From: an uncultured Methanobrevibacter sp.
GTDB lineage: Archaea > Methanobacteriota > Methanobacteria > Methanobacteriales > Methanobacteriaceae
Assembly: GCA_946541845.1 (NCBI GenBank)
Contig: CAMNJW010000009.1
Coordinates: forward strand, 1 to 38,897
Direction: 5' to 3'
DNA: 38,897 nucleotides
Part shown: in pieces, positions 17,463 to 21,296 of the stretch
How positions within the stretch are numbered: the stretch's first letter is position 1
How the letters are laid out: the number at the start of each line of letters is the position of its first letter
Notes under the pieces: generated by a model
Database searches by the model: none
Seen by the model: only the letters and a program-made list of their open reading frames with translations
What the model was told of the DNA's origin: nothing
Translations under genes and position numbers: made by a program

Positions 17463-17464
<2 letters not shown>
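17437..17464 (-). terminator. Terminator hairpin overlapping the cdc48 stop codon
   Basis: AAGGAAGAAA at 17437-17446 and TTTCTTCCTT at 17455-17464 are exact inverse repeats with an 8-base loop. Read on the minus strand, the 5' arm starts inside the cdc48 stop codon and the 3' arm runs into a T6 tract at 17433-17438. Confidence 0.65.
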
Positions 17465-19670
<2,206 letters not shown>

Positions 19671-19731
19671 GATAATCATCTCCTTTTAAATGGCTATAAT
19701 GTAATAATTGTAATTTTGTCAAAATCTTTTT

Positions 19732-19767
19732 GTTACTTTTGGTAACTTTATTGACAGATATACCTGT
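19732..19767. promoter_or_regulatory. Dyads in the cdc48 leader (possible operator)
   Basis: GTTAC at 19732-19736 and GTAAC at 19742-19746 form an inverted repeat with a 5-base spacer. A second dyad, ACAG at 19754-19757 with CTGT at 19764-19767, lies over the predicted start site. Both sit between the cdc48 TATA box and its start codon, where a bound repressor would block transcription. Confidence 0.4.
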
Positions 19768-19777
19768 GTATGTTTTA

Positions 19778-19794
19778 CTATATAAATGTTTCGG
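19778..19794 (-). promoter_or_regulatory. BRE/TATA promoter of cdc48
   Basis: The minus strand reads CCGAAACATTTATATAG, a good archaeal BRE (CGAAA) followed by a TATA box (TTTATATA). The expected start site is near 19757, giving an mRNA leader of about 85 bases with the SD before the ATG at 19670. Between 19671 and 19985 (315 bases) I see only this promoter, the dyads and T-rich tracts that may end tyrA; no gene. Confidence 0.65.
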
Positions 19795-19985
19795 TTTTGA
19801 AAATAAAATTATTCTTCCTTAAATTATTTTATTCATTGAAAAAACAGTTATAGTTTTTTTATTATATTTAAAATAAATTTTATATTTTAATTTTATTAAA
19901 AAAATAGAAATTAAAGTGTTTTAGTAAATTCTAAAATTTAATTACTTTTTGACACTTTAACATTTGTTCGTATTAATCAAAACAA

Positions 19986-21296
19986 TTATCTTATGACTCC
20001 GCCAAATCCTGTGAACAATTTTTTGACATTCTCAATATCTGATTTTGAAAGTGCAGTGACTTCAAATGTCAGGCTTATTGACTCATCGTTGATCTGCGGA
20101 CCGCTGTATGCATCAGTAAGTCTGATGTCTATGATATTTTCAATGTTGAGCACGGTCTTTTCGATAGTTTCGACATGGACATTTTTGGGAAAAATACAGC
20201 TTATTGATGCAGTCTTCTTATTCAGATTTTCAATTTTCCATTCATATAACTCTTGGGGAAGCAATATCCTCAGATTTGCAATCCGGAATTTGTTGACTTT
20301 ATTCCCATTTCTTAAAACGGCAGTCTTGTTATCGAGACTTTCCAGAATGCCGACATGGATTTTTTGAGTATAAATGTGCTTTAGGCCGACTTCCTGTCCG
20401 ATCATATTATTAAGGTAGGTATGTTCGGAGCTTAATGCTGAAATGGCCTTGTCACTTCTACCCAATGCGTTTTTAATGTCTCCCATATGTTTTGTTGCCT
20501 TGATTGCAATATTGATGAACTCTTCACTGTTCTTGCTATTAATCACGTCCCTTAGCTCAAGCACAGCTTCTGCAAAGGTATTTCTTATATGTTCTCCGTT
20601 GCTGTTTAGGGATTGTATATTGTAAGTCAGGTAAGGATTTTGAGCAACAATACGGGCAATCATATCAATCATAAGATTGTAGATTGGACTTTCATAATCT
20701 TCGGTCTCGGATATGTCGACCTGCAGTTTTTCAATGGCAGATGCGGTTGAGATGAAAGAAAAATGAGTCAAAACCTGCACGATGCTCATCATGTAATCGT
20801 GCTTTTGGGCGGTGGTTTCAATGATTCTCATGTTTTTGCTGGCCAGGTATTCGTAAACCCTGCTGTACCATTTTCCTTTCTTGTCGGCGGTTAAAACGAT
20901 TACCTGATTGTCGAGGGTTGTGGTTCTCGGACCGAAAACAGGATGTGTTGGAATATATTCAACAGTATCGGGCAGGGCTTCACCCATTGTTTTGGTAGGT
21001 CCCTCTTTTACGGAGGTCACGTCAACCATCAGGGTTCCCTCCTTCATAAAAGGAGCAACTTCACGTATTACTTCTTCAGTAAATTGAATCGGCACTGAAA
21101 CAATCAGAATATCGCTGATATTGGCTATTCCTGCATTTGATTCAATGTAACTGACATTTAATTCATCAGCAACTCTTCTTCCCTTTTTGTGATCGGTACC
21201 TGATATGTACACATTAAATTCGTCTCTAAAGTAGTAGACAAGTGTTTTACCAAGTCCATCACTACCACCAATTATTCCAACATTCATTTCAATCAT
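19986..21296 (-). CDS. tyrA: Prephenate dehydrogenase with C-terminal extension
   Basis: NAD(P)-dependent oxidative decarboxylation of prephenate in tyrosine synthesis. The N-terminal Rossmann fold opens with MNVGIIGGSDGLGKT and shows VDVTSVKEGP and PTHPVFGP, the conserved family motifs (about residues 90-125), then the helical dimerisation domain with QVLTHFSFI. At 436 residues it is much longer than the usual bacterial dehydrogenase domain (about 280). Residues 290-350 look like a small beta domain, and the last 90 or so (LTDAYSGPQI, then ISLTFEV) resemble the FDX-ACB anticodon-binding fold of PheRS-beta, or an ACT-like fold. A TATA box sits about 26 bp upstream of the ATG at 21296 with no SD, suggesting a leaderless transcript. 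Confidence 0.88.
   Translation of the reverse strand: MIEMNVGIIGGSDGLGKTLVYYFRDEFNVYISGTDHKKGRRVADELNVSYIESNAGIANISDILIVSVPIQFTEEVIREVAPFMKEGTLMVDVTSVKEGPTKTMGEALPDTVEYIPTHPVFGPRTTTLDNQVIVLTADKKGKWYSRVYEYLASKNMRIIETTAQKHDYMMSIVQVLTHFSFISTASAIEKLQVDISETEDYESPIYNLMIDMIARIVAQNPYLTYNIQSLNSNGEHIRNTFAEAVLELRDVINSKNSEEFINIAIKATKHMGDIKNALGRSDKAISALSSEHTYLNNMIGQEVGLKHIYTQKIHVGILESLDNKTAVLRNGNKVNKFRIANLRILLPQELYEWKIENLNKKTASISCIFPKNVHVETIEKTVLNIENIIDIRLTDAYSGPQINDESISLTFEVTALSKSDIENVKKLFTGFGGVIR

Follow-up and report, generated by a model that had tools for sequence, protein, structure and literature searches.

The window, i.e. the whole stretch of 38 897 nucleotides analysed here, corresponds to contig 9 of an assembly of 1.58 Mb in 118 contigs that is 84.7% complete; Methanobrevibacter are the closest named relatives of this genome's regulator locus (discussed below). 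On its minus strand the window carries a gene for a CDC48-family AAA ATPase, the product of which scores 1034.4 bits against the TIGR01243 CDC48 model (cut-off 802.65) and has relatives in all 41 genomes searched. Upstream of cdc48 lie a prephenate dehydrogenase gene on the minus strand and then a pelota gene on the plus strand. An inverted repeat, TTAAAGTGT...ACACTTTAA (19911-19960), stands directly past the stop of the prephenate dehydrogenase gene; a part of it, AAAGTGTCAAAAAGTAATT, is found in many relatives and bears a weak likeness to the proposed operator. The gene and the elements of its leader are as follows.

17463..19679, minus strand: cdc48, CDC48-family AAA ATPase, 738 amino acids as listed
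19680..19687, minus strand: Shine-Dalgarno sequence of cdc48, AAAAGGAG, read directly
19717..19756, minus strand: possible 5'-UTR stem-loop with outer stem UGUCAA/UUGACA and inner stem GUUAC/GUAAC, from folding
19727..19752, minus strand: proposed extended operator, AATAAAGTTACCAAAAGTAACAAAAA, the best match of profile R1 in this genome
19732..19746, minus strand: proposed operator core, the dyad GTTAC-CAAAA-GTAAC (TWAC-N5-GTWA), exact match
19754..19767, minus strand: ACAG-N6-CTGT, around the predicted transcription start
19779..19794, minus strand: BRE/TATA of cdc48, CCGAAACA-TTTATATA, read directly

Read in the cdc48 sense, the leader thus runs from the BRE/TATA (CCGAAACA-TTTATATA) through ACAGGTATATCTGT and AATAAAGTTACCAAAAGTAACAAAAAG to AAAAGGAG. 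The BRE/TATA recurs in most Methanobrevibacter leaders, as does GGAG before the cdc48 start in most leaders of the genus. The start codon is likely at 19670 and not at 19679: the first ATG stands right against GGAG, and the alignment with many relatives begins only at the second. An Rfam search for known RNA families over 19500-20100 returned one match, on the other strand and far under its gathering score.

At 19732-19746 the plus strand reads GTTACTTTTGGTAAC, which is GTTACCAAAAGTAAC in the cdc48 sense. The original prediction had placed a GTTAC-N5-GTAAC dyad between the TATA box and the cdc48 start, and this position was confirmed: the dyad has one exact match in the window and none in 100 dinucleotide shuffles, while relaxed forms with up to two mismatches are not enriched there (7 found, 9.0 expected). 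This genome holds three exact copies, in the cdc48 leader, beside the regulator gene and inside an unrelated open reading frame, and the reversed pattern used as a control occurs six times per strand, so that on its own the dyad is no rarity in this genome, and the signal lies in its placement and conservation. The core starts 41 nt past the first T of the TATA box. The usual archaeal TATA spacing places transcription start near 19755-19758, which puts the dyad at about +10 to +25 of the predicted cdc48 start, as judged from TATA spacing alone. A second dyad, ACAG-N6-CTGT, had been said to span the start; it does lie around the predicted start, with two copies in the window against a shuffle mean of 0.35 (5 of 100 shuffles reach two), but its symmetry is not conserved: relatives, among them most of the window's own clade (clade A), mostly read ACAG..TTGT or differ, and we rejected it as a second operator.

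Conservation was examined in a first set of 37 cdc48 leaders (24 from the genus and 13 from beyond it) and in a second set of 63 leader copies taken from 61 genomes of the genus; 62 of 67 genus genomes matched at threshold, G054 and G061 were omitted (gene start missing) and G020 was added. The motif TWAC-N5-GTWA-NN-AAA is present in 45 of the 63 genus leaders against 0.4% of dinucleotide shuffles, so that the dyad, put forward as something close relatives should conserve, survived that comparison in the window's clade. Its commonest form is GTTAC-AAAAA-GTAAC; the leader of G059 reads CTAAC-AAAAA-GTTAC, near the CTAAC-N5-GTTAG of HSR1, and those of G007, G017, G024, G044 and G076 have CTTAC...GTTA. 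The 18 genus leaders without the motif are eleven from clade B (see below) together with G011, G043, G042, G021, G056, G060 and G078, among which G042, only 89% identical in cdc48, has CATAC-AAAAA-GAAAC in the motif's place. Beyond the genus, in other families of the order and class, TTATAGTWAC-N5-TTTACTARAA is found in all 13 cdc48 leaders (eight from family f2, four from f3 and one from f4), the second half-site being TTTA rather than GTWA. Since the motif is defined by TWAC/GTWA, the statement that its core changes only at the W positions is partly circular. The forms TTAC/GTAA and TAAC/GTTA interchange between genomes and between promoters of one set. The operator given for HSR1 of Archaeoglobus fulgidus in PMC9133787 is CTAAC-N5-GTTAG; the original prediction held that the spacing agrees with that of HSR1 and that the half-site differs, and of this the 5-bp spacer stands, while the half-site difference reduces to a T/A wobble inside TWAC and, given the interchange of the two forms in the same set, is not one of kind.

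An exact dyad also stands just before a 191-amino-acid winged-helix gene in divergent orientation to grpE-dnaK. The closest solved relative of its product is Phr of Pyrococcus (2p4w, E 2.2e-21), with 38 of 72 winged helix-turn-helix residues identical, and the likeness to HSR1 comes by way of this Phr comparison. The protein is above the cut-off for Pfam HTH_5 and, at 88.8 bits, below the curated cut-off of 320 for the Phr model NF053602, and we therefore call it Phr/HSR1-like rather than Phr. A match was found in all 41 genomes searched (weak in G039 and G040, a fragment in G022), and GQKA and RGRPRKYY are invariant across nine aligned orthologues. The gap between grpE and the regulator holds two elements with a spacing of 35 bp, in this genome as in most of the genus, most commonly AGTAACAAAAAGTTAT twice; one of them (O1) adjoins the grpE TATA box, and some genomes, this one included (C28:3210), have a third directly before the regulator. 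Also in the long grpE-dnaK leader (L046 and others; C28 in this genome), many genomes share a strongly conserved stretch, GGAATTTATGGACATATAGGAAAATGGTTCAT as read on the regulator's strand, which by eye could encode a tiny peptide, MNHFPICP, in the grpE sense.

The breadth of this association was assessed at named regulator loci, of which 75 of 80 were entered and 73 were left after two with too short an upstream region were dropped. In 70 of the 73 at least one site falls in the 600 nt preceding the regulator, and in 63 two or more do, against 0 of 68 downstream control segments; many of these loci belong to species already covered and are not independent, and the control segments are partly coding. 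A more distant search returned a regulator match in 33 of 121 genomes. Among the 25 loci read outside Methanobacteriales, TWAC-N5-GTWA occurs no more than 160 nt from the regulator in 17 (a raw count) and is absent over that distance in eight; G145, G183 and G126 carry exact CTAAC-N5-GTTAG there. In G038, sites are found before the regulator, about 170 nt before an hsp20-looking open reading frame and about 300 nt before cdc48.

The tightened 16-bp pattern AGTWACNAAARGTWAY matches this genome three times, once at cdc48 and twice in the stretch separating grpE-dnaK from the regulator. Across the 41 genomes there are 85, of which 80 lie at cdc48, grpE-dnaK/regulator, get3 or hsp20 (73 at cdc48 or grpE-dnaK/regulator, five at get3, one at a get3 promoter displaced by an insertion and one at hsp20) and five are unexplained by these targets. 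The reversed pattern gave 57 (both figures being hand counts of match rows), so the total number is weak and the case rests on location. In the get3 leaders, TWAC-N5-GTWA is present in 20 of 25 genus genomes and in 0 of 4 outside the genus.

Further targets were sought with a sequence-only profile, R1, built from 22 sites at cdc48, dnaK, regulator and get3, PAN, psmA and hsp20 being absent from its training set. The profile was run on 13 genus genomes, and annotation of its matches covered 20 regions and then 18 sites, a part of all those listed. Among the best 11 of 21 matches in this genome, which extend to about E 1.1, the top five are cdc48, grpE O1, the regulator site, grpE O2 and PAN; get3 and psmA are also in this set, together with four chance-like matches. 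The extended cdc48 operator scores 21.4 bits (E 6.6e-4), a value to be read in the light of this site being one of the 22 used for training. Matches inside open reading frames or without a sensible target were set aside, namely C26, C7, C11 and C1 of G000 and, in other genomes, L341, L342, L343, L344, L346, L349, L351, L353 and L354. The PAN site and the psmA site were each present in 7 of 7 genus genomes read (G012 excluded) and in 0 of 7 genomes read from outside the genus. The psmA (proteasome alpha) site lies upstream of the TATA box, as does the second hsp20 site. Five of the nine genus genomes that have hsp20 show the core in its leader (G004, G044, G067, G079 and G080), and sites in G057 and G012 were found by R1 or the 16-bp pattern; the core is absent from the hsp20 leaders of G011, G014 and G021 in the genus and of G025, G026 and G037 outside it, G010 has a weak R1 match at most, and hsp20 was not found in the 84.7% complete assembly studied here. 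The expectation that the motif would recur near chaperone and proteasome genes was thus borne out at grpE-dnaK, PAN, psmA and hsp20. In two Hsp20 proteins (L122:1328-1945 and L352:192-773) the HSP20 domain is preceded by a charged-looking N-terminal extension of some 90-105 residues.

Direct results of these computations are the sites, with their conservation and positions, and the homology of the regulator. From them we infer, with high confidence, that the cdc48 dyad is the operator of an HSR1/Phr-family winged-helix repressor of proteostasis genes, which would bind these sites, repress by binding and be relieved by heat. A dimer of the regulator would occupy TTAWAG-TWAC-N5-GTWA-NN-AAAA, immediately past the predicted cdc48 start site, and at normal temperature prevent RNA polymerase from being recruited or from escaping; stress would release the repressor. 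The same repressor would shut its own gene, grpE-dnaK (through two sites), hsp20, PAN and get3; at psmA it would act from upstream of the TATA box, where activation is as plausible as repression. Stress-linked repression had been predicted with the factor left unnamed: the sequence of the HSR1-like operator is consistent with such repression, and the factor now has a clear candidate in a Phr/HSR1 homologue with putative sites at its own gene.

Among known systems, HSR1 resembles the one proposed here in its 5-bp spacer, in a site at the regulator's own gene, in having hsp20 and cdc48 among its targets (here as sites) and in a homologous regulator group, PMC5852551 placing Phr and HSR1 in arCOG01684. 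It differs in that the cdc48 half-sites here are GTTAC/GTAAC rather than exact CTAAC/GTTAG (the wider TWAC-N5-GTWA fits), that regulator, hsp20 and cdc48 do not form one operon here, and that the predicted targets extend to dnaK, PAN, psmA and get3. With Phr of Pyrococcus furiosus there are in common the winged-helix homology, an A-run at the downstream edge of the site (PMC9133787) and, according to PMC10746257, HSP20 and VAT1 as targets; the site around the start in Phr has its likeness here in a position predicted from TATA spacing. In contrast, the regulator here falls under the Phr NCBIfam cut-off, and the Pyrococcus regulon adds PbaA and others (PMC10746257, a study that used RegPrecise); the same source gives the P. 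furiosus proteasome subunits as not heat induced, which counts against the proposed operator. According to PMC5852551, most euryarchaea have arCOG01684, which acts on HSP20 and CDC48, and part of this regulation may be ancestral; the kind of regulation is therefore already known, and what is new here is the assignment of this site, a candidate factor for the lineage and a longer list of targets. The 2022 review PMC9133787 gives only two heat-shock regulators as identified in archaea up to then. Our literature search, for which most subscription papers were out of reach, found no description of this regulon in Methanobacteriales. The bacterial counterpart at dnaK is HrcA/CIRCE, a repressor acting at a dyad site in the grpE-dnaK operon; its repressor is of another family and its element is different and longer, and no relation is claimed.

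The cdc48 leader can also be folded into a two-tier hairpin in which the dyad forms the inner stem (z -2.0; 7 of 200 shuffles equally stable), and like folds occur in many relatives. In the window's clade a swap test found no signal of covariation in the outer stem (p 0.41, 39 haplotypes). In the sister clade, clade B (G009, G013, G014, G020, G041, G050, G051, G053b, G058, G064 and G073), tandem 5'-UTR hairpins replace the cdc48 operator and arm changes are compensatory, with variants such as GGTTAC/GTAACC, GACTGC/GCAGTC and AGCTAC/GTAGCT; arms pair with their own partners at 6.3 of 7 positions against 4.8 of 7 when swapped (permutation p 0.00025, 10 haplotypes, a soft value, the arms being hand-read and their sequences related). 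Clade B keeps its dnaK sites (G009, G013, G014 and G020) and PAN/psmA sites (G014 and G064). We read the leader of the window's clade as operator first and hairpin second.

Both elements might nevertheless hold, with a DNA operator lying within a 5' stem-loop in the window's clade and clade B having kept the stem-loop and lost the operator. The arrangement TGTCAA...TAAA...GTTAC...GTAAC common to much of both clades, the compensation in clade B beside an operator kept in clade A, and an outer stem in G012 that is wholly replaced yet paired all favour this; given the weak support for a stem-loop in the window's clade, we regard it as a possible though somewhat doubtful account. That the site serves another factor, or is a general promoter element of strongly expressed genes, seems unlikely to us: the link between protein and site is drawn by inference, and the psmA and second hsp20 sites lie upstream of the TATA box, but in 70 of 73 named loci sites are gathered at the regulator's own gene, the published HSR1 sequence is among those seen in distant families, and most of the matches that were placed belong to proteostasis genes.

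It is quite improbable, in our judgement, that the dyad is primarily the inner stem of an RNA element governing mRNA stability or translation, its operator likeness being secondary. The two-tier fold and the covarying arms of clade B speak for such an element; against it are the absence of outer-stem covariation in the window's clade, the softness of the clade B p value, the poor pairing of the f3 cdc48 sites, and G008, which retains TWAC-N5-GTWA (as GTTAC/GTTAC) but breaks the RNA stem. Moreover, grpE O1 cannot be an RNA element of the grpE transcript, since it adjoins the TATA box and so precedes every likely start. A chance dyad in an AT-rich leader, to which the background level of relaxed matches and the frequency of the bare dyad genome-wide might point, is rejected by the conservation in cdc48 leaders (45 of 63 against 0.4%) and has a negligible probability.

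Taken with the preferred operator reading, the results define a concrete candidate regulon for rumen and gut methanogens, with one protein and one motif, that would join unfolding (Cdc48, PAN), degradation (20S), refolding (DnaK, Hsp20) and tail-anchor targeting (Get3); TWAC-N5-GTWA, which fits both the published half-site of HSR1 and that of cdc48, offers a reason for their apparent difference. More tentatively, and with rather low confidence in the whole, a single Phr/HSR1-family repressor may govern most of Methanobrevibacter proteostasis (Hsp20, the DnaK system, Cdc48, PAN with the 20S proteasome alpha subunit, and Get3), dnaK having been recruited to it and control of cdc48 in clade B having passed from DNA to RNA. 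Archaeal DnaK is thought to be of bacterial origin. Were this combined reading to hold, the cdc48 operator of clade B would have been overwritten by a co-evolving RNA hairpin.

Five genus get3 leaders lack the core, four with apparent insertions and one ended by a contig edge. In L124, L133 and L135-L137 (get3 leaders of G001, G006, G002 and G004) the operator seems to be split by the insertions, and an operator-like end followed by TTTTCCGNNGGACAA recurs in these leaders, in L001:945-1010 and in L211 and L212, as if it were the target of a mobile element. Elsewhere, on C2 of G021 (L127, around 1517), a ferritin gene and a nifH-like gene flank a good operator-like site.
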